A stretch of DNA of 64,000 nucleotides from a virus: positions 19,142-83,141 of IMG/VR virus record IMGVR_UViG_3300048066_000291. One strand, written 5' to 3'. Below are positions 4,355-63,588 of this stretch, piece after piece (the first letter of the stretch is position 1; every line of letters begins with the position of its first letter). A program made the position numbers and the translations under genes. Under the pieces are notes generated by a model, which saw only the letters and a program-made list of their open reading frames with translations, was not told the origin of the DNA and made no database searches.

Positions 4355-5041
4355 TTAATCACACTTGCACGAGCCAGGCTGGCCACGCGGTACTCCTGCT
4401 ACTTTACGACAGCCTTTCCAGCACTTCTTATAGATTTTGCTGTTGCCGTGACGCTTGCCTTCTTCAAGATCTGCAAGTTCTTTCTTTTCAGAAGCAGTTA
4501 GCATTGCTTTGCCGCATTCGTTACAAGTTTGTTCAGACTCAGAAAGTTTTGATGCTAATCTATCTTGGAGTGATTCTTTTCTAAGACTAGTTTTTTTCTT
4601 TTTGCCACTTGCTTTGCCGGCATGTACTGCTTTACGGTGTGCATCTGATTTAAACTTACCTTCTTCAACCTTTGGGTCATTACAATTGCAATGCTCGCAA
4701 TCTGCAGGACATTTACAGTCTTCTCTTTTAAGCTCTGCACCGCAACATTTATCTGAACAATGAGTATCTTTCTTTGATTCTCCTAATTGCCCGCCGTCGT
4801 GTGCCATATCATAATCAAGTGAGTGATATACAGAACCTAAATAGTCTGCGGCTTTTGTAATTTTAGCTTGTTGCCAACCTTCAATACCTTCAGCTTCAGA
4901 AACAGTTTTAAGCATTTCATGTAGTTTGATAGCATACTTTGCTAGTTTATAAAGATCGGCACGAGCCATTTGAACTTCATGGTCGCGTTCAGCAACGTCA
5001 GCTAGTTCGCCTAATCCTTCTTCAATTTCTTGTTTTCTCAT
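4355..5041 (-). CDS. Cys/Lys-rich virion-type protein with probable prohead-protease site
   Basis: 228 aa. The N-terminus MRKQEIEE|GLG fits the T4 prohead protease rule (I/L)-x-E|(A/G). Residues ~20-85 are a conserved helical domain (AERDHEVQMARADLYKLAKY). Then come Cys clusters: CSDKCC...CKCPADCEHCNC at ~98-125, a CNEC at ~172 and a C-terminal CWKGCRKVAGVPRGQPGSCK tag. The Cys pairs could bind zinc. The middle is very basic (GKKKKTSLRK), consistent with DNA contact inside a capsid. Internal head protein is an inference. Confidence 0.7.
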   Translation of the reverse strand: MRKQEIEEGLGELADVAERDHEVQMARADLYKLAKYAIKLHEMLKTVSEAEGIEGWQQAKITKAADYLGSVYHSLDYDMAHDGGQLGESKKDTHCSDKCCGAELKREDCKCPADCEHCNCNDPKVEEGKFKSDAHRKAVHAGKASGKKKKTSLRKESLQDRLASKLSESEQTCNECGKAMLTASEKKELADLEEGKRHGNSKIYKKCWKGCRKVAGVPRGQPGSCKCD

Positions 5042-5052
5042 TGGTTGCTCCG

Positions 5053-5343
5053 TTATCTCTTAACCGCTTTTTTCTTTTTCTTTGACCCAGGCGCACGTTT
5101 AATAGTACCAACGCCACCGCCTACAAATCCATTACCTCCACCCATACTAGATGCTACATCACCAGCAGTTGTTTCAGTTTTAACTTTAGTTTTTTTCTTT
5201 TGGTCTTTTTTATCTTTATCTTTTTCACCTGCGTCTTTCAACCCAGCCTTAAATGGAGATACTACAGCATCACGATCGTTGTATTTCTTAAAGCCATGCT
5301 TTACAGAATCTACAAACCCTTCGTCAATTTCATGCATTTTCAT
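5053..5343 (-). CDS. Small very basic virion-type protein
   Basis: 96 aa; about one third Lys/Arg, with a Gly-rich stretch (SSMGGGNGFVGGGVG) and a poly-Lys tail. The N-terminus MKMHEIDE|GF matches the IxE|G prohead cleavage pattern of T4 internal proteins. AAGGAG precedes the ATG and a late promoter lies just upstream (5362-5370), supporting a late, capsid-related role. Expected to bind DNA by charge. Confidence 0.7.
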   Translation of the reverse strand: MKMHEIDEGFVDSVKHGFKKYNDRDAVVSPFKAGLKDAGEKDKDKKDQKKKTKVKTETTAGDVASSMGGGNGFVGGGVGTIKRAPGSKKKKKAVKR

Positions 5344-5361
5344 AGTATACTCCTTATAGTA

Positions 5362-5370
5362 TATTTATCT
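5362..5370 (-). promoter_or_regulatory. Late promoter (AGATAAATA)
   Basis: Minus-strand AGATAAATA, a T4 TATAAATA-like late element, 19 bases before the ATG at 5343. It overlaps the stop codon of the small gene 5365-5541. Confidence 0.7.
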
Positions 5371-5541
5371 AGTTAAGTTAACTTTGTAATTTTTCCAGTA
5401 CTGGTTGCGTTCATTAGTACTTGTTGCATTTGCTTCGTGTTCTTTATATTTTTCAATATAATGATCTAAATTATTTCTATTTTCATACTCTAACCATTCG
5501 CTACTATATCCAATTTGCTTATGACCAGAATCCCAAACCAC
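5365..5541 (-). CDS. Small hypothetical protein, GTG start
   Basis: 58 aa (begins VWDSGHKQIGYSSEWLEY). The GTG overlaps the TAG of the upstream DUF6356-type gene by one base (TAGTG), the same coupling style as the many TAATG overlaps nearby. Polar composition with several Trp/Tyr and a clean stop. It fills an otherwise empty gap between two genes on the same strand. No recognised family and no strong ribosome site, so moderate confidence. Confidence 0.5.
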   Translation of the reverse strand: MVWDSGHKQIGYSSEWLEYENRNNLDHYIEKYKEHEANATSTNERNQYWKNYKVNLTR

Positions 5542-5732
5542 TATCTTTGATCCAATATGTTTTGCATTGTTTTAGTTGCTGTTTCAGTAAAGAAGCGTGG
5601 AGCAACACTGTGTACTACTAGTGCTGGTACAAGTAATTGCAATTTTACGGCTGTTGTTAATGCAGCCTTCATATGTTCTAATCCTGTTTCACCTTTTTCA
5701 TCTAGGTGTAATTTACATTGTTTACTAAACAT
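5541..5732 (-). CDS. DUF6356-like small protein
   Basis: 63 aa. The pattern HLDEKGETGLEHMKAALTTA, then a hydrophobic helix and VHSVAPRFF, matches as I remember it the DUF6356 family (HL-E-xE-Y-xHm..A, hydrophobic helix, liHsl-P-xF) found in alphaproteobacteria and their phages. Probably a single membrane-associated helix. ATG overlaps the TAA of the upstream gene by one base (TAATG). Function unknown. Confidence 0.65.
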   Translation of the reverse strand: MFSKQCKLHLDEKGETGLEHMKAALTTAVKLQLLVPALVVHSVAPRFFTETATKTMQNILDQR

Positions 5733-6472
5733 TATTTCTTCTTTCTACCTGACTTCATATTTGCACACCAGTGATACATTTTAGCCTTTTCACCACTTGC
5801 GTTCTTAGCACGTTTGCGTAGTGCTGTAACTGATCCATTGCAACTAGCACCAGACTTTTTTACTCTGCCTGGTCTGCTTTTGCCTTTTTTCTTACCGTCA
5901 GCAAAGTTTTCATCTACATGTGCATCATCACCTGGTTTATCAGCATCTTGTGTTTTGTATCCTGCTTTTTTAAGACCTTTCTTAAGATGGTCTTTTTCTT
6001 TCTTACCACCAAACGGAACAATCATTACATCTGGTTCGTCTCTGTTGTCACTTTTCTTAGCATTTGATAAGTTAGAAATAGTTTTTCCTACTCTTAAAAA
6101 GTCATATGCAGTATCTGACTTTGATAAAAATGTGTTTTTTGGATTGTCAATAGCTTGTCCTTCGTCTAGTGTACGTGCATTTAAATGACCTAAATGTTCG
6201 TCAATATGTAGTGCAAGTTCGAAGTCAAGTTGTGTAAGACCACCTACATCGTGTGTGTATACCATTAAGATAAGTTCGTTATAGAACACTCCAATATCAG
6301 CAAAATGATCTAGTTCAATCTGCGGGTCTTTAATCATTTGTAAAAATTCTAATGCTTGATTATAATCATCAAACGCTACTTTTTTATATAAGTATTTTCC
6401 TTTACGTATCTCCCAATCAGGAGTAAACTTTGCACGTATTGGTTCTGCTTGTTTTATATCTAACTTCTTCAT
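5732..6472 (-). CDS. Pterin-4a-carbinolamine dehydratase-like domain fused to a basic virion-type tag
   Basis: 246 aa in two parts. Residues ~10-100 (WEIRKGKYLYKKVAF, then VFYNELILMVYTHDVGGLTQ, then DFELALHID) follow the pterin-4a-carbinolamine dehydratase (PCD/DCoH) fold. The PCD signature is kept except that the second His of the H-H/N pair is Phe (DHFAD), so activity may be altered. Residues ~150-246 are Lys-rich and end in SCNGSVTALRKRAKNASGEK and YHWCANMKSG, a tag I recall as a stand-alone module in marine phages. Placed among likely internal head proteins; a role in pterin chemistry is uncertain. Confidence 0.65.
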   Translation of the reverse strand: MKKLDIKQAEPIRAKFTPDWEIRKGKYLYKKVAFDDYNQALEFLQMIKDPQIELDHFADIGVFYNELILMVYTHDVGGLTQLDFELALHIDEHLGHLNARTLDEGQAIDNPKNTFLSKSDTAYDFLRVGKTISNLSNAKKSDNRDEPDVMIVPFGGKKEKDHLKKGLKKAGYKTQDADKPGDDAHVDENFADGKKKGKSRPGRVKKSGASCNGSVTALRKRAKNASGEKAKMYHWCANMKSGRKKK

Positions 6473-6669
6473 TTTACAAGCCCTAAATTAAATAGTACAT
6501 TAGTACTTTTACCTTTAACTTTTTTACTTAGTGTAGGAGGACGTCCGTCTTTGTCTACTTTATTGCCAAACTTAGCAGCCTGTTTAGTAACTTCGTCGGG
6601 ACCTACATCAACAGTTTGATTCTGTTTAGTAATACGTCCAACAGCTTCTAATAATTCATTTACTTTCAT
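6469..6669 (-). CDS. Small conserved virion-type protein with probable prohead-protease site
   Basis: 66 aa. MKVNELLE|AVGRITKQN fits the L-x-E|A cleavage rule; the rest (TVDVGPDEVTKQAAKFGNKV, DGRPPTLSKK) is a sequence I recall widely in marine T4-like phages. I chose ATG at 6669 because it overlaps the upstream stop as TAATG with AAGG before it; an in-frame TTG two codons upstream is less likely. ATGA-type overlap with the downstream PCD-like gene. Confidence 0.7.
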   Translation of the reverse strand: MKVNELLEAVGRITKQNQTVDVGPDEVTKQAAKFGNKVDKDGRPPTLSKKVKGKSTNVLFNLGLVK

Positions 6670-6917
6670 TACCAAACCTTAATTACATGAAAATCAACAG
6701 GTTTTAAAAATTTAATTTCATTTCTACGTTGATTCAAGTCTATAAAAACAAAGTGCTTTGGGTTAGTTTTAATTAACTTCTTTGCTTTATATCTTTTTTC
6801 CTTCCAAGTTTCAGTTCTAGCACCATCTTGATGTACTGTTACTGTATCAGCTACCCAAATAATAAGTTCGTATTCTTCGAGCCAAAACTCGTTCCACCAC
6901 TTTTTTATTTTACTCAC
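6669..6917 (-). CDS. Small conserved phage protein
   Basis: 82 aa. Begins with an aromatic amphipathic stretch (KKWWNEFWLEEYELIIWV) and ends in a beta-rich part (KHFVFIDLNQRRNEIKF, then HVIKVW). I recall this family from T4-like marine phages without a function. Overlaps both neighbours by 1-4 bases, so it is part of one translational unit. Confidence 0.7.
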   Translation of the reverse strand: MSKIKKWWNEFWLEEYELIIWVADTVTVHQDGARTETWKEKRYKAKKLIKTNPKHFVFIDLNQRRNEIKFLKPVDFHVIKVW

Positions 6918-7126
6918 TTTTTATTACGTCCTCTAAAAGTATGTCCTGTCATATAAGGTTTTGAAAACCACAATTCAAACCATTCTTTGTCGCCCGGCTT
7001 AATATTATTTGCTTTTTCTTTTTTCTTTAGTTCTGTAGCAGTTTGGCTCATGTCTTCAAGAGTGTATTCTGTATACCCTTTAAATTCATTTACCCCTGCT
7101 AGTTGTTTAAGCCTTTCAATATCCAT
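6914..7126 (-). CDS. Small hypothetical virion-type protein
   Basis: 70 aa, charged, starting MDIERLKQLAGVNEF, similar in style to the capsid-targeting N-termini of its neighbours (VNE could be a weak cleavage site). C-terminus is basic (HTFRGRNKK). Overlaps the upstream gene by TAATG and the downstream gene by ATGA. Confidence 0.65.
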   Translation of the reverse strand: MDIERLKQLAGVNEFKGYTEYTLEDMSQTATELKKKEKANNIKPGDKEWFELWFSKPYMTGHTFRGRNKK

Positions 7127-47589: not shown

Positions 47590-47964
47590 TTATTTTAGCT
47601 CCAATATTTGTGTTTCATCAAACATCTTGTCAAAGTTTATACTAACGCCACAACCACATGCTGATTGTGCGTTAGGGTTATTAACTTCAAACATAGATCC
47701 AATTATGTCTTTTTTATAATTAATTTCTGTACCAACTAAAAACATAGTGCTATGCACACCGATTACAAAGGTACAGTTGTTGTCTGTTTTTAGGACTTCG
47801 TCGCCCTCATTAAGTTCATCTGGGCTGTTCAGTGTACCCCATTCATACTCAAAGCCTGCACAACCGCCGCCTTTTACATTTAAAGTGATTGCATAGCACC
47901 CGTGTTCGTTACATAAAGTGTCTATTTGTTGTTTTGCTGAGTCTGTTAGTGTACATATTGCCAT
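47590..47964 (-). CDS. iscA: A-type Fe-S carrier (IscA/HesB family)
   Basis: 124 aa from ATG 47964 with AAAGGGA before it. Three conserved Cys of the family are present: GGGCAGFEYEW (~39) and SACGCGVSINF (~108-110). A-type carriers hand Fe-S clusters to target proteins. It is the first gene after a late promoter and lies one base before the 2926-aa adhesin gene, so it is made late with tail proteins. HesB-like genes are known in cyanophages; a virion Fe-S target is an inference. Confidence 0.9.
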   Translation of the reverse strand: MAICTLTDSAKQQIDTLCNEHGCYAITLNVKGGGCAGFEYEWGTLNSPDELNEGDEVLKTDNNCTFVIGVHSTMFLVGTEINYKKDIIGSMFEVNNPNAQSACGCGVSINFDKMFDETQILELK

Positions 47965-47984
47965 AGATTTCCCTTTCACATCAA

Positions 47985-48313: not shown

Positions 48314-49555
48314 CTAGTCTACATTCTTCCAAGTAAATGCTCCAAAGAACATTTCATCTTCTGACATCTGTCCCCAAGGCACACTTCTACTAGGATCAGG
48401 ATTCATAGGATTGTCTGCTGAATTATCAAATGCTCCTTCCACATGAAGTATAGTTCCTTTAGGTATATACTTAGGTTCACGCCAAGTATAACTTAATTGC
48501 CAAGCATAATCATACTTGGGTATGTCAATTAGTTCTTCCCAGGTACCATCCTCGTAGTACGCTGTTGCTTTCATGCTCTTGCCACGGAAGTGCATGTGTG
48601 GTAAGAACGTGTGTAACATGATATCTTGTTTGACAACAATTTCTGCTTCTTGTACAAAGTTAGGATCGTATGGCGGAATATTCGTCCAAGTATTTGGGAA
48701 TATACAAGCACAATCGCCTGCCATTCTTTCTTCTGGTACTACACCTTCGTCATGGAAGTATAAACCAATACGAGCTTTGTCCGTTCTAGCAGTTCCATCT
48801 GGTGTATAGTGCAACTGTAAATTTACAATTGAACCTGCACGTAACAGTCCACCAGTGTTAGCATCGTAGTAGTCTGGTGTGCCGCCTGGAACATAAGCAC
48901 TGATTTGTGCATAGTCCATATTGCCTTGTCCTTCTCCACTTGTACCTAGCAAGTTCATATTGCGTTCACCGGGTATACTAACTGTGTTTAGCATATGATG
49001 CATAACAGTAGGTTCACTGGGTAAAAATTCTGAACCACGTAACCAACGGTCCTCTGTAAGTCCTAGGTCAACACTAGTATAACGATACGGAATAGCATTT
49101 GGACCAAGTGTGCCCACAGCAGGTATTTCCTGTGCTGGTACTTCTATTATCATATCAGGTTTGCCATTCACCCATTCACTTGTAGAATATTCTGTAAGAG
49201 TGAGCGGATCAACATCGCCGTCAACAGGTGCGCCTGCATCAATCCACGCTACAATAGTCTCCATTTCTATGTGACTCAGCGTTCTATGATTGATTATGTC
49301 CTCAGCATACTTAGGATTAATTTGTCCTGGAGGCATACGTTTTGTTTCAATAGCTTCTTTAATTGCAGGCGCAAATGCTTGTAACATTCTATAGTCAGTC
49401 ATTGCCCACGGTGCTATACCGTTTTCTCTGTGGCAAGCCTGACATTGCTCTACAAAGATAGGTGCTACATTTTCTGCATAGTCTATAGCAACATCGTCGT
49501 GTGCATACGCAACAGATGTTAATAAACTACTTACTAGCAATATTAATTTTTTCAT
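48314..49555 (-). CDS. Exported cytochrome c-copper type II monooxygenase (second of a tandem pair)
   Basis: 413 aa. Sec signal peptide (~1-18, cut after SVAYA). c-type heme site C38-Q-A-C41-H42 with likely axial Met74 (RMPP). Then a PHM/DBH-like copper monooxygenase fold with all six expected ligands: H186-H187 and H249 (CuH site), H320-M-H322 and M402 in DEM (CuM site). Spacings are close to rat PHM. The heme could feed electrons to copper in the periplasm, replacing ascorbate. Start overlaps the paralogue upstream by 29 bases. Substrate unknown. Needs host cytochrome c maturation. Confidence 0.88.
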   Translation of the reverse strand: MKKLILLVSSLLTSVAYAHDDVAIDYAENVAPIFVEQCQACHRENGIAPWAMTDYRMLQAFAPAIKEAIETKRMPPGQINPKYAEDIINHRTLSHIEMETIVAWIDAGAPVDGDVDPLTLTEYSTSEWVNGKPDMIIEVPAQEIPAVGTLGPNAIPYRYTSVDLGLTEDRWLRGSEFLPSEPTVMHHMLNTVSIPGERNMNLLGTSGEGQGNMDYAQISAYVPGGTPDYYDANTGGLLRAGSIVNLQLHYTPDGTARTDKARIGLYFHDEGVVPEERMAGDCACIFPNTWTNIPPYDPNFVQEAEIVVKQDIMLHTFLPHMHFRGKSMKATAYYEDGTWEELIDIPKYDYAWQLSYTWREPKYIPKGTILHVEGAFDNSADNPMNPDPSRSVPWGQMSEDEMFFGAFTWKNVD

Positions 49556-50810
49556 TCCTTTCTTCCTTTAGTTTGTTGTATCCTTCATCGTCTAAGTGTG
49601 TGATAGCAAGCCACGCATGAGTCATTTCATCTCCTGTACGTGAACCTCCCATTACCCACATATCAGGGTCTGGATTGTTTGGGTTATTTTCTGTATTGTC
49701 ATACCATTGCTTTAGAACAATAACTGCTCCAGCTGGTAAGAGTGGTGCAACGTCCGGGTCATACAAATGACTGTGATGCCATGTTGCACTCCAATTACTT
49801 ACTTGGCTAATCTGTTCTGTGCGTCCTGTCTCTGGATAGAATATTTCTAAACTTGCTGCGTTCATACGCAAGTGTCCATGTGGTTGAAAACTATCTAGTC
49901 TAACTGGGTGATCAAAACTGTGGAAGCCTTGTGTCATGTAATAACCATGTGGTGGGATAACTATATCGTCCTGATCCCCTAAGCGATATAAACTTAAATC
50001 TTGTTTGTATTTCAGTTGTTCGCTTTCCTCTTCGGTGTATAACCAAAGACCAATCTCTACCACGTTGTCTTTTATAACTGATCCTGGTGCCATTGCTCCA
50101 AGTCCACCTGGAAACATGTGTATGTCCCAACGTACTTGCGAGTTTGCTGGTAGTGTACGACATACTCCTTCTGGAACAATCTCTCCCCACTTTCCCATAG
50201 CATACTCCGTGAGCATTGCTTGACGTCCTCCGTCTATAACAATATTTGAGTTTGCATGGTGGACTACTGCTTTTGCTTCGCCACGCGGCTTAACTTGTAC
50301 CGCTTTAATACAACGGTCTTCAGTTAGACCTGTAGGAACCAAATGTTTGTGCCACAAGTCATTACCATTTGCAGGGATATCTATTGCTACACTTGGAATG
50401 ATTAAATTAGGTTGTCCAAAGTCGCCTTCAAAGTTCCATGCTTCTGGATCAGGAAGGTTAGCTGGTTGTACTACTATATCTTGACTACCATATTGTGCTC
50501 CTGCGTTTACCCACTCAACAACTGTGTCTATTTCATCTTGCGATAACCGCCAGTCACCTTGTAGGTCTTGAATGCCAATACCGTGATCGTATGCATACGG
50601 AGGCATTTCTCTGTTTGCTACACGCATCTGTATTAATGGAGCCCAAGGTCTTACTTGCTCGTATGTTTCAAAGCTCATTGGCCCAATACCACCCGCACGA
50701 TGACATACTACACAGTTATCGTTAATGATAGCTGCTACTTCGTTGGTATATGTTTGTGCTGATAGTACAAGCGGGAATAAAGCCGCTAATGCTGCTGTAA
50801 TGTATTTCAT
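49527..50810 (-). CDS. Exported cytochrome c-copper type II monooxygenase (first of a tandem pair)
   Basis: 427 aa. Signal peptide (~1-18, LFPLVLSAQ). Heme site C33-V-V-C36-H37 with likely axial Met69 (EMPP). Copper ligands H184-H185, H231, H311-G-H313 and M396 (GDEMT) complete both sites. Only moderately similar to its neighbour, so the pair is an old duplication or a heteromer rather than a fresh copy. Last ~20 residues are a charged helix. Late-type promoter and AGGAG upstream. Such domain fusions are known to me from bacterial genomes, not from T4-like phages. Confidence 0.88.
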   Translation of the reverse strand: MKYITAALAALFPLVLSAQTYTNEVAAIINDNCVVCHRAGGIGPMSFETYEQVRPWAPLIQMRVANREMPPYAYDHGIGIQDLQGDWRLSQDEIDTVVEWVNAGAQYGSQDIVVQPANLPDPEAWNFEGDFGQPNLIIPSVAIDIPANGNDLWHKHLVPTGLTEDRCIKAVQVKPRGEAKAVVHHANSNIVIDGGRQAMLTEYAMGKWGEIVPEGVCRTLPANSQVRWDIHMFPGGLGAMAPGSVIKDNVVEIGLWLYTEEESEQLKYKQDLSLYRLGDQDDIVIPPHGYYMTQGFHSFDHPVRLDSFQPHGHLRMNAASLEIFYPETGRTEQISQVSNWSATWHHSHLYDPDVAPLLPAGAVIVLKQWYDNTENNPNNPDPDMWVMGGSRTGDEMTHAWLAITHLDDEGYNKLKEERNEKINIASK

Positions 50811-50834: not shown

Positions 50835-50843
50835 TATTTAAAC
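50835..50843 (-). promoter_or_regulatory. Late-type promoter variant (GTTTAAATA)
   Basis: Minus-strand GTTTAAATA, 24 bases before ATG 50810, with AGGAG between. One or two mismatches to the local late consensus. Confidence 0.5.
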
Positions 50844-50901
50844 ACATTACAGCAGTAACGCAACCTATTTTACGTGATTGTTACAATTTGTTGCATCTTG
50901 A

Positions 50902-51421: not shown

Positions 51422-51695
51422 TCATACTCTTTAATTGATCAATTGCAGTCTCACAGCGAGTCAGCTTACGCTCTAAAACAGTGATAGCTGCTCGCTGTTT
51501 TCTTGACTGTTCTTCCAAACTATTCACATATGTAAGTGTTGGTACTTCTTGTTGACTGCCATCTTCGCTCATCATGACAAACTTATCAACACCTTGTGCT
51601 TTTAGTCCGCCAGTTACTCTGTTGGGATTTTTATTAGATGATGATTGGGTCTGGGCTGGTTGCTTCCTGCCGTACATGTGATTCAAATAGCTCAT
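51408..51695 (-). CDS. Small coiled-coil phage protein overlapping uvsE
   Basis: 95 aa from ATG 51695 (MSYLNHMYGRKQPAQTQSSS) with GGAG seven bases before it. The C-terminal half is a coiled coil (LEEQSRKQRAAITVLERKLT). The first 62 bases overlap the 3' end of uvsE in another frame. The longer ORF start at 51773 was rejected. Function unknown. Confidence 0.65.
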   Translation of the reverse strand: MSYLNHMYGRKQPAQTQSSSNKNPNRVTGGLKAQGVDKFVMMSEDGSQQEVPTLTYVNSLEEQSRKQRAAITVLERKLTRCETAIDQLKSMIKPS

Positions 51696-52728
51696 TATTG
51701 TTCTCCATATAGTATTTATATAGTGCAATACTTGCAAGATTCTTGCACTTGCTCTCGCACATAATATCTGCATAGTCTAAGAAGCTCAATGCCCAATCGT
51801 TAACAAGTTGGTTAGGATAGTAGTCACTGTGCGCACGAAGTTTTGCTTTCTTGTAGCCTGCTTCAAGTAGTGCTGGCATATCAGGCATAGTATCGTGTGT
51901 AAAGTCTTGTGGTAACCATTCGTCTCTGCTGTAACTGTAATGTATCACAGGACGCACACCACGCCAGCTGTCAATTACGCGAGCAAATCTATCGTCGGTT
52001 GGTAATATATATTCAGCTTCGCGACACCAGTGGTGGTGTATGTCCAGTACGAGGGCGAGTTCGTCGGCAAGTTCAAGACTTGCGTCGAGTCCCCACTTGT
52101 TCTCGTCGTTCTCGATTGTGATGGTGTTTCTCGCTTCTGGCGATAACCGCTTGAGGGCGGCTTTGATACCGGCTGGACCTTTGCGGCCTGAGATGTGTAC
52201 GTTACACTTGAAGTCTTGGAATTGTACGCCGTAGCCCATCCACCTGATGCAATCCACATGATATTCAAACTCCTCTATACTACGTTCTACTATTTCTTCA
52301 CTATCTGAAGCAAGGACTGTAAATTGGCCCGGGTGCATCGAGAGTCGAACATTGAGGGCTCTTGCCGTTTGTCCAACTTCTGCAAACGCTCTTTCCGCAT
52401 ATGCCACCACGTCAGGCTTACGCCAAAAATAACTCCAATCAGGCTGGGTATAAACAGGAAGTACATCAGAACCCAATCGTACCATCCGAAGTTCAGGTGG
52501 AAGTGATCCCACATACTCAATCAACCTTTTGTATGACGCAATGTTATGGACCATGATGTCCCACAAGCGTTCTTCAGCAACATCACGTGTCTGCCTGTTA
52601 AGCCACTGTACTGTTGTGCTACGAGTATTTAGCGGGCGTTGTATTTCTTCTAAGATCTTTTTCTTCTGCGTTTGATCTGGATGCATGTATTTGCAAGCAA
52701 AACCAATACGCTTTTGTGTACTGTTCAT
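51634..52728 (-). CDS. uvsE: UV damage endonuclease (UvsE/UvdE)
   Basis: 364 aa from ATG 52728 (MNSTQKRIGFACKY) with GGTGA before it; an ATG 11 codons upstream sits right at the predicted transcription start and could be a leaderless alternative. TIM-barrel metal ligands: RLSMHPGQF, IENDE, LVLDIHHHW and KLRAHSDYY. Nicks 5' of UV photoproducts, starting repair; common in marine phages exposed to sunlight. Confidence 0.93.
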   Translation of the reverse strand: MNSTQKRIGFACKYMHPDQTQKKKILEEIQRPLNTRSTTVQWLNRQTRDVAEERLWDIMVHNIASYKRLIEYVGSLPPELRMVRLGSDVLPVYTQPDWSYFWRKPDVVAYAERAFAEVGQTARALNVRLSMHPGQFTVLASDSEEIVERSIEEFEYHVDCIRWMGYGVQFQDFKCNVHISGRKGPAGIKAALKRLSPEARNTITIENDENKWGLDASLELADELALVLDIHHHWCREAEYILPTDDRFARVIDSWRGVRPVIHYSYSRDEWLPQDFTHDTMPDMPALLEAGYKKAKLRAHSDYYPNQLVNDWALSFLDYADIMCESKCKNLASIALYKYYMENNNELFESHVRQEATSPDPIII

Positions 52729-52766
52729 ATAGTCACCACATGTTGTAAATTTTAAGTCCATAGTTT

Positions 52767-52795: not shown

Positions 52796-53486
52796 TCACC
52801 CATTGGTCCTTACATCTGTGAGGATTAGGATCTCCATGAAATACTGCAATAGCTGTATTATCTTTAATAATAGGATCTCCGTTTACTGCAAAGTCTCTCT
52901 GACCTCTTGGATTTGAATCAAAGTCAGGTTTGCCGCGCATTTCCCATTTATAACTTTGTATCCATTCGTCCGGCCAATATTCGAAGTCGTTTGTATCTTT
53001 TAAGTTTGCATAAATCCAATCTTGATCACCCGGATATCTGTGTGTTATTATATTATGTGATTTTATAAAATCATTGTATATACGAGGCATTGATCCCGAT
53101 TCTAGTCTAAATATACTAGAATTCATTTTCTTAAAGTTTCTTACAACAAATCTATTAAAGTCACGTATAATACAAAAACGTCCTGGCTTATATGAAAAAA
53201 GTCTATCTATATTTCTAAATATAATCATATCTAGATCTAAAAACAATATAGTTCCTTTAAGATCTATGTTAGGATCAAATACAAAAGGTTTATACCACCA
53301 ACCCGTAACACCATTTGTTATAGGTAGATCCTTAATTACTACTTCAGGATTGATGCCTGTAGAATCTTCAGTCATGCAAACAAATTCAAACGGAACAGTT
53401 AAGTTATGCTTTACACCATTGTAAAGTTTATTAACATATTCCGCCGAGTATTTGTTGCCGTACTTTAGACAGACAACGTAATTCAT
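52779..53486 (-). CDS. Glycosyltransferase (DxD, GT-A type)
   Basis: 235 aa from ATG 53486 (MNYVVCLKYGNKYSAEYVNK), which overlaps the QueD-like stop as TAATG; the longer ORF start was rejected. TILFLDLDMIIFRNID carries the DxD metal/nucleotide-sugar motif, and the fold order resembles GT8-like transferases. GDQDWIYANLKD and FHGDPNPH match later family motifs. Could modify phage DNA, fibres or host glycans. Confidence 0.8.
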   Translation of the reverse strand: MNYVVCLKYGNKYSAEYVNKLYNGVKHNLTVPFEFVCMTEDSTGINPEVVIKDLPITNGVTGWWYKPFVFDPNIDLKGTILFLDLDMIIFRNIDRLFSYKPGRFCIIRDFNRFVVRNFKKMNSSIFRLESGSMPRIYNDFIKSHNIITHRYPGDQDWIYANLKDTNDFEYWPDEWIQSYKWEMRGKPDFDSNPRGQRDFAVNGDPIIKDNTAIAVFHGDPNPHRCKDQWVIDNWK

Positions 53487-53932
53487 TATGCTTCGTAAAT
53501 CGCCGAGTTTGCTCCGTGTTCTGCACACTCTACTCGTACGCAATAACAACGATTATCTGTTTTTTCTCTAATGAGCTCGTCTGCAAAGTTAAATGCGTGT
53601 TCTGCAAACTTCTCTGCACCAACACCATCAAACACACGAATGTGTGCAAGATCCATTGCTTCAAGTTCACGCATCTTATCTAGATGTGGATCGTTTTTAT
53701 CAACTGCTACTTTATGATCAAAGTGATCTTCTAGCCAAGCCTTGAGTGGCTTTAGTCCGCCAAAGTCAACAGCCCAGTTTTTATTATCTAGTTCGTCACA
53801 TCCAAATGTAAATGTAAATGCTAAACTGTAACCGTGTAACAAATGACAGTGTGAATGATCTGCGTTAGGTTGACGGAACACTGCTGATAATCCAATGTTG
53901 TGTCCGTAATGTTTTGTACTGTAATAAGCCAT
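53486..53932 (-). CDS. queD: 6-pyruvoyl-tetrahydropterin synthase/QueD-like protein
   Basis: 148 aa. T-fold signs: HSHCHLLHGYSLAF (zinc/catalytic region; the usual LHGH is LHGY), AVDFGGLKPLKAWLED, FDH, and ECAEHGANSAIYE. QueD makes 6-carboxytetrahydropterin in queuosine/7-deazaguanine synthesis. No queC, queE, dpd or TGT-like gene is in the window, so the pathway may be completed by the host or elsewhere on the phage. The His-to-Tyr change is one I recall in related marine sequences. Confidence 0.85.
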   Translation of the reverse strand: MAYYSTKHYGHNIGLSAVFRQPNADHSHCHLLHGYSLAFTFTFGCDELDNKNWAVDFGGLKPLKAWLEDHFDHKVAVDKNDPHLDKMRELEAMDLAHIRVFDGVGAEKFAEHAFNFADELIREKTDNRCYCVRVECAEHGANSAIYEA

Positions 53933-54535
53933 CTATATCTCCTGTTGTTGATTATTTAATATAACTTGTGTAGGCAGTGTGTTAAAACTAATAACTATTC
54001 TGTTATCACTGCTGTTGTTTTCTCTAGTGTGATGCATTAAGTAACTGGGGAATAATATTAATCTACCAGTCACAGTATCTATTACTGCTTCTTTTGCAGT
54101 AAATGGTGTGTCTAAAGCAGGTATATCTAATATTTTAAAATCGTTTAAAGGATTCTTCAAAACTAAAGGACATGTTTCTGCTTCTGCCGACACATATAAT
54201 GCTCCGCTAATAGTACTAACTTTGTGTTGATGTTCTAATACTTTGCCATTAGGCGCCATAATATTAAACCAACTGCTGGTAATACTTAAATCTTGTAATC
54301 CGGTATTTTTTGCATATTCATTTACTGCTAGTGATAGCTGTTGTTTTATACTCAATAGTGCTTCTTGATCTAATAGATAAAGCTCGCCTTTAACAGTATC
54401 ATGACTACTTACGCCAGCAGATACTAATCCATGCTGTCCTGAAATATCTAAGGATTTAAAATATTCTTCATTGATATTTTTAGGTATATTAATACCATAA
54501 ATGCCAACTGGAGTAGGAAATAAGTTATGTATCAT
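53933..54535 (-). CDS. 2OG-Fe(II) oxygenase (TIGR02466-like)
   Basis: 200 aa. NLFPTPVGIYGINIP start, WFNIMAPNGKVLEHQHKVST (first iron His pair), FPSYLMHHTRENN (distal His) and RIVISFN (2OG Arg). This is the typical phage family with start FPTPV/ and end RiviSFN. No Shine-Dalgarno; a sigma70 promoter ends six bases before the ATG. Confidence 0.85.
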   Translation of the reverse strand: MIHNLFPTPVGIYGINIPKNINEEYFKSLDISGQHGLVSAGVSSHDTVKGELYLLDQEALLSIKQQLSLAVNEYAKNTGLQDLSITSSWFNIMAPNGKVLEHQHKVSTISGALYVSAEAETCPLVLKNPLNDFKILDIPALDTPFTAKEAVIDTVTGRLILFPSYLMHHTRENNSSDNRIVISFNTLPTQVILNNQQQEI

Positions 54536-60172: not shown

Positions 60173-61699
60173 TTAAAATTTGTTGATTTTTTTATCAATA
60201 TATTCATGAAGGAATGGGCCTGCAACTAGATTAACTTTGCCTCCCGACTGTGCTTTTGACTGCATCTTTTGTTCTTCTAGCTCTTGATTAGAAAGTTTTG
60301 AATGTGCTATCATTTCTGCATTTCCCATCTGCCAGTTGTCTAGTGCTGTTTTGTGATATAATTCTGCAATAATTTTATCAGATATCTTTTGTGCTTCAAA
60401 CCAGTTCATCGAATCGTGTTCCCAAATAAACTGCTTTTTACTATAGTTGCCTGCTGAAAATGACATCTCGTGATTTATCATTCCATCTACCCAATATGGT
60501 CTTTTTTCTTCAGGCATTTCTCTAAGTCCGTACTTAGTTAAATTTTTACTAAATGCACTTACGTTTGTATATTCTTCTTCGCCGTTACTTAGGTCTTGTA
60601 CATCTAACGGAAACACAACCAAGCCTTCTTCATTCCAATTCTCTAATAACCAATTTCTAGTTCGCTTCCAATTCTTTTTGTTATCATGCGGAAGACCTAC
60701 AATTAAACTTATTGTACCTCTATATAGTCCAGATTGGCTTGTAATACGTTTAGCATCTAATATTGTTTGTTGTACCCTAGCAGGATCCATACCTTTGCCG
60801 ATTGTTCTACCACTGGCTTGATTAAATGTTTCAATGCCGTAATACTGACCACCAAACTTCATACGTGCAAGCTCAGTTATCATTTCTGGTTTTGTTGCCA
60901 TTAGATCAGCTCTAATAAATCCACTGTAAAATGTTTCAAAAGGAAGTTTTTCAACTACGTCTGCAAATTTTGATATTTTACCTAATCGGTCATTGAATGT
61001 TTCATCTGCAACATAGTATCTAGTAACTCCGAACTTGTCAAAGTTATGTTTCATTTCATTATCAAAACTTTCAGCAGTTCTTGATGTATCCTCTTTAACT
61101 CCAAGTATAGGAAAATTACAAAAGTCACATTTAAATTTACAACCTCTAGAGAATTCAATAGTTAACCATTCGTAGTCTTTTACATAATCTCTATCTTCCA
61201 TTATAATACTATAATCTTTGAGATTGTATGCAGGGTATCTATTAAGTGCTTTAATTACTTGCTTCTTGCCAAAGTGTGCTACGTCATATCCAATAGGAGA
61301 ACTAGAAAATCCAGCAAGATTTCTAACTACGTCTAGCATTGCTACTTCGCCATAACTGTCTACAAATATATCAATATTTGGATCATCAATGTGTACACTA
61401 TTCTGTCCACCTAGCACTGTTGTAATATGAGGCCAACGTTTCTTTAACCAAGCAGTTAGGCGTTTCATCTCTTCTGGCCAATAACTAAAGAAAGGACTAA
61501 ACCCAAAAAATAATGTGTCCTTGGTTATACTTTGTCTTATAAATTGATGTAGTTTATCTAAGGGCAAGTGTGGTGTAAAATCTACAACCTCAATATCACA
61601 ATCGTGTTGTCTAAGATAAGTTGCAATACGATGGGCGCCACTACTACGTTGAATAGGGTTTACCCTAGATGAAAAAATTAAACCATGTGTTTTAGACAT
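60173..61699 (-). CDS. Radical SAM protein with B12-binding-like N-terminal domain
   Basis: 508 aa from ATG 61699 (MSKTHGLIFSSRVNP). Residues ~1-160 resemble a cobalamin-binding Rossmann domain (IEVVDFTPHLP, ITTVLGGQNS, GEVAMLDVVRNL) but no DxHxxG motif is visible, so cobalamin may be base-off or absent. CKFKCDFC (~200) is the CxxxCxxC cluster site; GGQYYGIETFN and ISLIVGLPHD are SAM-binding beta strands. Methylases and oxidoreductases of this class act on sugars, lipids or peptides. Stop lies ~2 bases from the next gene. Confidence 0.88.
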   Translation of the reverse strand: MSKTHGLIFSSRVNPIQRSSGAHRIATYLRQHDCDIEVVDFTPHLPLDKLHQFIRQSITKDTLFFGFSPFFSYWPEEMKRLTAWLKKRWPHITTVLGGQNSVHIDDPNIDIFVDSYGEVAMLDVVRNLAGFSSSPIGYDVAHFGKKQVIKALNRYPAYNLKDYSIIMEDRDYVKDYEWLTIEFSRGCKFKCDFCNFPILGVKEDTSRTAESFDNEMKHNFDKFGVTRYYVADETFNDRLGKISKFADVVEKLPFETFYSGFIRADLMATKPEMITELARMKFGGQYYGIETFNQASGRTIGKGMDPARVQQTILDAKRITSQSGLYRGTISLIVGLPHDNKKNWKRTRNWLLENWNEEGLVVFPLDVQDLSNGEEEYTNVSAFSKNLTKYGLREMPEEKRPYWVDGMINHEMSFSAGNYSKKQFIWEHDSMNWFEAQKISDKIIAELYHKTALDNWQMGNAEMIAHSKLSNQELEEQKMQSKAQSGGKVNLVAGPFLHEYIDKKINKF

Positions 61700-61700
61700 A

Positions 61701-62291
61701 CTAATAAGCCCAAAGAGCAAACCTAACATCAGGCTGATTTGTTACCCCATGTATTTCACTAAAATTAAAATAATGCCAGCAGTCTTCTTCTAATATATGA
61801 GACTCTGCTTCTTCAATCATTTGCATTGGGATACCTACACTATCGTTTACACCTATTTCTTGGTGTTGTTCTTTAAGTTTATACCATGTTGTTTTTACAG
61901 CTGGACCGCCAGTTTTTAGTATGTATAATAATCCTTCTTTACGGAACGCTGGTGGATCAATATGAGGAGCGGTATGTTTCCCACCTGATACTACCTGCAT
62001 TGCAAACTGTCGGTGAGAAAGAGTTGGAACTGACTTATAGTATTCTTTTAACTTGTCTTCGTATCTTTTAGACATTTCATAAAATCCAACGCTGCCAGTT
62101 GTATCATGATATGCCTTTTCATCCGGTTTTAGTGTTACACCGTATTTTTCAAGTTTATCTTGTATTTGTCCGTAATCGCCGAACTGGTGGGTCATGCTTT
62201 CTTTGTTAAACTTTTTAACAGCATGTTTAACAATTTTAAATTTTAAAGCTAATGGGATTCTAGGGAGTTCGCCTAGTTTTTGATAGTACAT
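61701..62291 (-). CDS. Possible Fe(II)/2OG-type oxygenase
   Basis: 196 aa. GKHTAPHIDPPAFRKEGLLY offers an HxD iron motif and EIHGVTNQPDVRFAL the distal His and Arg, the order of a 2OG-Fe(II) dioxygenase. N-terminal half is helical. Weaker match than the other oxygenases here. One base from the radical SAM gene. Confidence 0.55.
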   Translation of the reverse strand: MYYQKLGELPRIPLALKFKIVKHAVKKFNKESMTHQFGDYGQIQDKLEKYGVTLKPDEKAYHDTTGSVGFYEMSKRYEDKLKEYYKSVPTLSHRQFAMQVVSGGKHTAPHIDPPAFRKEGLLYILKTGGPAVKTTWYKLKEQHQEIGVNDSVGIPMQMIEEAESHILEEDCWHYFNFSEIHGVTNQPDVRFALWAY

Positions 62292-62294
62292 ATG

Positions 62295-62972
62295 TTACCA
62301 CCCTTCAAATGATATTCTTTTCCAAATTTTATCTTCACCGTTATAGTTAGCAACGCAATGATAAAAGTAGTTGTCGTCTATACAGACATCTCCTTTTAAA
62401 TCTTGTTTGTAACCAATTGGATCGTTTATCGTCCTGTGTTCTATATTTAGCGTAGTTGGAAGATAGGTCTTTTTACTATCGAAGCCTAACATCATTTCAT
62501 TGTTGGCAGTAAAGCACAATACTTCTTCAGGAAAATCTTCGTTAGTGCCTACATGAATATTAAAACGATAATCATCATTACTGTCTGTAAATGACAACCA
62601 TTTGTTTACTGCCACTTTGTTGCTGCTTAAATAATCACTATTTTTTAGTATGTCTGATTCAATAATTGATGTAGTTATCATTTCTTCAACATGCAGATGT
62701 AGCGATTCAACATTGCCTGTTGTTACACTGCCTGAAAACAACCCGTCTATTGCTTCTATTTTATTATTAACTTTTATATTTTCTGTTGTTAATTTTAAGG
62801 CTGCTTCGTCCCATGTAAGTTCTACACCAGTATGTGTAATTGCTTGACTGTCATCTTTATAAACTGCAAGAGATCCTTTGACTCCTTGATCAATTTGGTT
62901 AGTGCAATTAATATAAGTGTCGCCTTCTAACCGTGTTATTGTTATTGGAGGTACTCCAATCAGCTTATCCAT
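62295..62972 (-). CDS. Short tail-fibre-type protein
   Basis: 225 aa. Beta-rich; C-terminal DLKGDVCIDDNYFYHCVANY plus KIWKRISFEGW is the classical GD-x-yvd-yly-C-ana--WkRi tip of phage fibres. Overlaps the upstream oxygenase by 8 bases, so it is expressed together with it; the oxygenase could modify it. Confidence 0.75.
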   Translation of the reverse strand: MDKLIGVPPITITRLEGDTYINCTNQIDQGVKGSLAVYKDDSQAITHTGVELTWDEAALKLTTENIKVNNKIEAIDGLFSGSVTTGNVESLHLHVEEMITTSIIESDILKNSDYLSSNKVAVNKWLSFTDSNDDYRFNIHVGTNEDFPEEVLCFTANNEMMLGFDSKKTYLPTTLNIEHRTINDPIGYKQDLKGDVCIDDNYFYHCVANYNGEDKIWKRISFEGW

Positions 62973-63588
62973 AGTTTACATCCAAATTGTATACGTTACC
63001 TGCTACTGATATTCTACAACCATCTTCAGTAAAAGGATACACTGTATGAAATACATCAGAAGGAAAAATAAACATATCGCCTGTTTTAGGAACCATTTTA
63101 ATTTGTGAGTTATTATTCATAAACTCAATTACGCCACGTACTTGACTATGTTCTGTTTCATACTCGTTTCTAATATTGTCTGGAATATCTACATAAATTA
63201 TATAACTTAATTCAGCAGTGTGTATGTGCATAGGATTAAAATCGTTTGCATACGTGTAGTTTACCCACAGCGGACCTAGCTGTGCTGAAAGTAGTTTTGC
63301 AGATTCATTAATTGAAGTTTTTCTATAATACTCTTTCATTTTACTTACAAGATAGTCCATTATATATTGACCATCCCACTCATCAAAACTTAATTCGTAT
63401 TCATGCTCCATTGTTGCTACTAGTCTTTTGTGTACATTCTTTTCTTCGCCTAGCAACCTAGATGCCTCTGCTGATTGCTTTAACAATTTTAAAACTTTGT
63501 CGTTAACTGACGTTACTAGTATGCTTGGACCAAATGGATGTATAACTTGATCTTGTACTTGTTCTGTTTTAAGAGGACGCTTCTGCAA
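62965..63588 (-). CDS. 2OG-Fe(II) oxygenase-like protein
   Basis: 207 aa. FNPMHIHTAELSYIIYVDI (iron His pair), PKTGDMFIFPSDVFHTVYPF (distal His) and CRISVAGNV (2OG Arg). Same broad fold as the 19849 and 53933 proteins but distinct in sequence. Overlaps neighbours on both sides. Confidence 0.82.
   Translation of the reverse strand: MQKRPLKTEQVQDQVIHPFGPSILVTSVNDKVLKLLKQSAEASRLLGEEKNVHKRLVATMEHEYELSFDEWDGQYIMDYLVSKMKEYYRKTSINESAKLLSAQLGPLWVNYTYANDFNPMHIHTAELSYIIYVDIPDNIRNEYETEHSQVRGVIEFMNNNSQIKMVPKTGDMFIFPSDVFHTVYPFTEDGCRISVAGNVYNLDVNYG

Follow-up and report, generated by a model that had tools for sequence, protein, structure and literature searches.

Paired cytochrome c-copper monooxygenase-like genes form a conserved and probably mobile cassette in uncultured T4-like phages

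What would a T4-like phage do with two exported enzymes that each join a heme domain to a pair of copper sites? The question is raised by genes A and B in a 64,000-nt window (the whole stretch of DNA analyzed here, positions 19,142-83,141 of IMG/VR record IMGVR_UViG_3300048066_000291, an 83-kb contig). An earlier note on this DNA had described them as adjacent, overlapping genes, each encoding a signal peptide, CxxCH/MPP motifs, and both copper sites. Both open reading frames (ORFs) are intact on the reverse strand, and the described layout was confirmed as follows, where L171 denotes a bacterial protein used for alignment:

49527..50810, (-) strand: gene B, predicted exported cytochrome c-PHM/DBH-like copper monooxygenase, 427 aa, first gene of the cassette (ORF)
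50757..50810, (-) strand: predicted signal peptide of B, residues 1-18, ...VLSA followed by QT (sequence)
50700..50714, (-) strand: heme c attachment motif CVVCH of B, residues 33-37 (sequence motif)
50604-50606, (-) strand: distal Met69 (MPP) of B (sequence motif)
50256..50261, (-) strand: CuH-site His184-His185 of B (motif; HH aligned with L171)
50118-50120, (-) strand: third CuH ligand His231 of B (motif)
49872..49880, (-) strand: CuM-site His311-x-His313 of B (motif and L171 alignment)
49767..49778, (-) strand: B-specific HHSH, residues 345-348, not present in A (conservation)
49623-49625, (-) strand: CuM Met396 (DEM) of B (motif and L171 alignment)
49527..49555, (-) strand: 29-base overlap of the end of B and the start of A (coordinates)
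48314..49555, (-) strand: gene A, predicted exported cytochrome c-PHM/DBH-like copper monooxygenase, 413 aa (ORF)
49502..49555, (-) strand: predicted signal peptide of A, residues 1-18, ...VAYA followed by HD (sequence)
49430..49444, (-) strand: heme c attachment motif CQACH of A, residues 38-42 (sequence motif)
49334-49336, (-) strand: distal Met74 (MPP) of A (sequence motif)
48995..49000, (-) strand: CuH-site His186-His187 of A (motif and L171 alignment)
48809-48811, (-) strand: third CuH ligand His249 of A (motif and L171 alignment)
48590..48598, (-) strand: CuM-site His320-x-His322 of A (motif and L171 alignment)
48350-48352, (-) strand: CuM Met402 (DEM) of A (motif and L171 alignment)

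The two proteins are 26% identical and share one order of motifs: a signal-peptide-like N-terminus, CxxCH, MPP, HH, H, HxH, and DEM. The gene order is B-A in every locus holding both genes, and no internal stops were found among the ORFs examined. The 29-base overlap, which probably provides translational coupling, is present in 33 of the 87 loci with both genes, and other lineages are spaced differently. A heuristic for N-terminal charge and a hydrophobic run was passed by 56 of 68 distinct B proteins and 48 of 54 distinct A proteins. The B exceptions shown resemble wrong start-codon picks (e.g., the true start in contig L072 is MKKILSMITFF), and the remaining A proteins still have a hydrophobic N-terminus with a small-residue cleavage-like site at its end. 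Judged by this N-terminus, the invariant CxxCH motif, and the distal methionine, the N-terminal domain of both proteins is assigned to the class-I c-type cytochromes; Cytochrome_CBB3 was matched by 40 of 42 B proteins at E < 0.01.

Assignment of the C-terminal part was less direct. Since PDB sequence searches with single proteins and with profiles of A and B gave no PHM relative, a bacterial intermediate was needed. The L171 protein was found by the profile of B, scores above the Pfam cut-off with each of the two copper domains, and aligns with rat PHM (1opm) at E 2.8e-7 in the PDB sequence alignment. Via this protein, the rat copper ligands H107, H108, H172, H242, H244, and M314 were matched to A and B; the alignment with A spans every ligand, and that with B spans most of them and drifts near H231. 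The L171 protein is like A and B in its 414-aa length and its CVACH, HH, PHAH, and DEM motifs, but it is only 23-24% identical to them, has a possible lipobox at its start, and adjoins a TonB-receptor-like gene. Rat PHM and human DBH (PF01082/PF03712) have the same six copper ligands in the same order as A and B, whereas A and B have an N-terminal heme c domain and a bacterial signal peptide and score below the Pfam cut-offs: A reaches 18.3 bits against a curated cut-off of 23 for PF03712, and B gave no such score. Neither protein has a PHROG match.

Both AlphaFold models are poor (pLDDT 58 and 65), and therefore the copper geometry is unreadable from them. The best PDB matches in Foldseek searches with these low-confidence models were nevertheless all of PHM/DBH type: PHM for A (1.8e-7), and human DBH (4.5e-11) followed by PHM for B. 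The pattern expected of the superfamily, HH and H followed by HxH and M, is found in order in 54 of 54 A and 68 of 68 B proteins. On these alignments and models, we classify A and B as members of the PHM/DBH two-copper superfamily. The rat PHM residues Arg240, Asn316, and Tyr318, which we take to bind the peptide carboxylate, correspond to Leu318, Phe404, and Ala406 in A and to Gln309, His398, and Trp400 in B. Since the peptide-binding residues are not kept, a role of A and B in peptide amidation appears unlikely.

Across the distinct IMG/VR proteins (54 for A, 68 for B), all heme and copper ligands are invariant, and the median dN/dS values are 0.11 for A and 0.09 for B. Both genes are thus under strong purifying selection, as had been argued earlier from ligand conservation. 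The HHSH motif of B is equally constant, with His345, His346, and His348 in 68 of 68 proteins and Ser347 in 42 of 42, and may form an extra metal or substrate site.

Are A and B true phage genes? Besides a T4-type (gp43-type) DNA polymerase and tail-fibre-related genes, the record encodes a clamp loader, for which the nearest counterpart (55%) is found in Pseudomonas phage PA5oct-like phages. In relatives, gp21-gp22-gp23 adjoin B, and six related records contain a gp23 that scores above its Pfam cut-off. Pattern-based IMG/VR scans located A in at least 113 and B in at least 244 places in viral contigs, these counts being lower bounds for relatives with redundant assemblies included. Such a spread over hundreds of places, many with phage neighbors, argues against the explanation that the pair is host DNA in a chimeric contig, which would draw on L153, a Pseudomonadales MAG contig that holds A and a truncated B at ~4800-6996. 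This contig, the single match of a genome-contig scan, was itself judged a chimera: its G+C content drops from ~62% to 41% where the phage piece starts and B is cut, so that the simplest account is a phage fragment wrongly joined in assembly or binning. We regard host origin as extremely improbable, and the misassembly that the earlier note had named as a possible refutation is countered by the occurrence of the pair in many viral contigs, including ones with T4-type capsid genes. The pair is carried by genuine T4-like phages. A cyanophage origin was considered and rejected, a psbA/psbD-type gene being found in none of 26 related records, most of them fragments. Neither the window nor the rest of the record contains tRNA genes; tRNAs are present in a 340-kb contig that also has the cassette.

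The cassette occupies several unrelated sites in T4-like genomes: (i) in the window it is flanked by UvdE and a giant tail-fibre-like gene, (ii) in 13 loci B directly follows gp23, and (iii) other sites are near nrdA in one relative and in the 340-kb contig. Clustering of loci by shared neighbors merged most of them into one group and gives no insertion-site count. Homologs in other phage contigs with the same neighbors had been proposed as a check; many viral contigs do carry homologs, but the neighbors differ between lineages, with no defense, lysis, or receptor gene constantly adjoining. Compared with the 340-kb phage contig, B is 88% and A 83% identical, whereas other shared proteins are mostly 30-60% identical, which would be expected if the cassette moves between phages, or if it is under unusually strong constraint.

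The position immediately downstream of gp23 in 13 loci would also suit virion structural or decoration proteins, the more so as PHM has a double jelly-roll fold like that of some capsid proteins (PMC8812541) and the model of B weakly matches the PBCV-1 capsid in Foldseek. Such a role is at odds with the signal peptides, the invariant heme and copper ligands, and the other placements in other lineages; moreover, the cassette has its own promoter after the gp23 terminator, and the gp23 flank is a known hotspot of auxiliary genes (PMC8115048). We consider a virion role highly improbable.

The region upstream of B contains two elements of possible regulatory meaning:

50835..50842, (-) strand: TTTAAATA upstream of B, differing at one base from TATAAATA, the T4 late promoter (motif scan)
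50879..50895, (-) strand: cassette element TGCAACAAATTGTAAC(A), a direct repeat with a 10-base period, sole copy in the record

The late promoter claimed earlier is present in the window only as the degenerate TTTAAATA, the exact TATAAATA being absent upstream of B. In relatives, however, the exact sequence is enriched at this position, with 12 of 39 non-redundant relatives having it against 0.9 expected, and in L072 it comes after a terminator-like hairpin that follows gp23. The cassette element corresponds to a 16-bp element, TGYAAYNNATTGTAAC, of which the 27 contigs searched (2.48 Mb) contain 13 copies, 12 of them just upstream of B, whereas its reversed control has no match in the same contigs. 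The CpxR box consensus is a direct repeat, GTAAA-(N)4-8-GTAAA (PMC5063474); GYAAY-N5-GTAAC has the same layout and spacing as such a CpxR/OmpR-type box and differs from it in the last base of each half. We put forward a CpxR-type regulator site as a lead only.

The two genes are partly, not strictly, co-inherited, as the distance correlation between A and B is modest (Mantel r 0.31, with no permutation as high). Among 26 long contigs, B is found in all 26 and A in 18; contigs of 230 kb and 119 kb, possibly incomplete, carry B alone. The existence of several phage contigs with B and without A suggests that B does not strictly depend on A.

In about 11 distinct loci, a gene for a predicted exported c-type cytochrome of 101-128 aa lies between B and A, and three of three tested proteins are above the Pfam cytochrome c cut-off; two further contigs have a small c-type cytochrome unlinked to the pair. 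Its presence in the cassette supports electron delivery by cytochrome c. The same feature, together with the fusion of a heme domain to an O2-reducing copper center, could mean that A and B mainly drain the host cytochrome c pool to O2 and thereby sustain late respiration, much as is proposed for the plastid-type terminal oxidase of cyanophages. PHM/DBH enzymes, however, couple O2 reduction with substrate hydroxylation, and the very high conservation around the ligands suggests a dedicated substrate pocket; a mere electron sink therefore seems unlikely.

We prefer, with a probability of about 0.7, the reading in which the phage genes A and B specify exported PHM/DBH-superfamily enzymes, each with an N-terminal class-I cytochrome c domain, and form a paired mobile auxiliary cassette. 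Under this reading, the genes would be expressed mainly late in infection, and the proteins would be exported by Sec, receive heme from the host cytochrome c maturation system, and acquire copper in the periplasm. The heme domain would take the place of ascorbate as electron donor, accepting electrons from c-type cytochromes of the host periplasm or, where present, from the small phage cytochrome and passing them on to CuH/CuM, where O2 would be activated and a C-H bond of a non-peptide envelope substrate hydroxylated. A and B would most likely work as a pair, either as a heteromer or by catalyzing consecutive steps, although B can also occur alone. As an auxiliary metabolic module with its own promoter region, the cassette would pass from one T4-like phage lineage to another.

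A more specific purpose for such chemistry would be late oxidation of a surface lipid, glycan, or secreted signal that blocks superinfection or defense signaling. The predicted export, the late promoters in several lineages, and the spread among different phages are in line with this purpose, but with flanks varying by lineage and no constant defense, lysis, or receptor neighbor we think it improbable. Rather doubtful, too, is the reading as a horizontally mobile phage oxygenase system, in which two exported heme-copper hydroxylases would draw electrons from a cytochrome c of the system itself, a host regulator of the envelope-stress type would act on the operator, and the chemistry carried out on the host envelope or on a periplasmic small molecule would be one that no known phage performs.

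The origin of the pair was addressed by comparison with cellular proteins. In the tree, whose deep order is rough because of long branches, the A proteins form one group and the B proteins another, and A joins cellular redoxin-cytochrome-monooxygenases, not B (97/95 support). The A and B proteins, earlier called two diverged paralogs, are indeed diverged, but with A closer to cellular enzymes than to B, a simple tandem duplication is too simple an explanation. The cellular search covered Pseudomonadota and thus sampled cellular diversity thinly; strong matches occurred in <1% of ~400 sampled genomes, the nearest cellular protein found is 37% identical to A, and B has no close cellular relative in this sample. 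Redoxin-cytochrome c-Cu2 monooxygenase fusions of Pseudomonadota (L156 and L157, with relatives L158 and L331) have a cytochrome and copper layout like that of A, to which they are 34-37% identical over ~390 residues; they differ from A in their size (~600-770 aa), in the N-terminal redoxin domain added in L156 and L157, and in that no phage context was seen.

Exported redox enzymes had been thought to belong to no known phage programme. This does not hold for copper and redox genes as a kind, since auxiliary genes of T4-like phages and marine viruses include nirK/norB and a gp23-adjacent amoC (PMC8115048). A and B are like these in being copper/redox enzymes of marine viral contigs with a gp23-flank hotspot, and unlike them in belonging to another superfamily, in pairing heme-copper enzymes, in having their own cytochrome in some lineages, in the dedicated upstream element, and in their several genome sites. 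No earlier report of the PHM/DBH-type enzyme class was found in the literature on phages, and nothing in INPHARED was matched by tblastn with A, B, or either of the two cytochromes tried. Within the literature and collections searched, what appears to be new is the enzyme class, along with its occurrence as a pair, its cytochrome partner, and an upstream element of its own.

With no PHROG or INPHARED match and scores below Pfam cut-offs, A and B would tend to be missed by profile-based annotation, yet they are a paired, strongly conserved enzyme class common to many uncultured T4-like aquatic viruses of bacteria. If active, they would place an O2-using hydroxylase in the periplasm during infection and link the virus to copper, heme, and respiratory electron flow. 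The phage proteins also make it easier to test what their cellular cytochrome c-PHM relatives do.

Several further genes were observed along the way. The same window encodes an iron-sulphur biosynthesis protein, the UvdE endonuclease, a 6-pyruvoyl tetrahydropterin synthase, two 2OG-Fe(II) oxygenases, and a B12-binding radical SAM enzyme (six genes, at 47590-47979, 51634-52761, 53486-53932, 53933-54535, 60173-61729, and 62965-63588). Four viral contigs without A or B contain a distinct, membrane-anchored cytochrome c553-like protein of ~147 aa (L222 4821-5264, L243 4806-5249, L235 4815-5261, and L239 4809-5252); the L222 protein has no INPHARED match, and in L222 and L243 the gene is preceded by apparent ribonucleotide reductase genes and followed by a glutaredoxin-like gene. 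Finally, in contig L214 a more divergent A (702-1913, 52% identity) adjoins a small cytochrome with 90% identity, which hints at a wider family.
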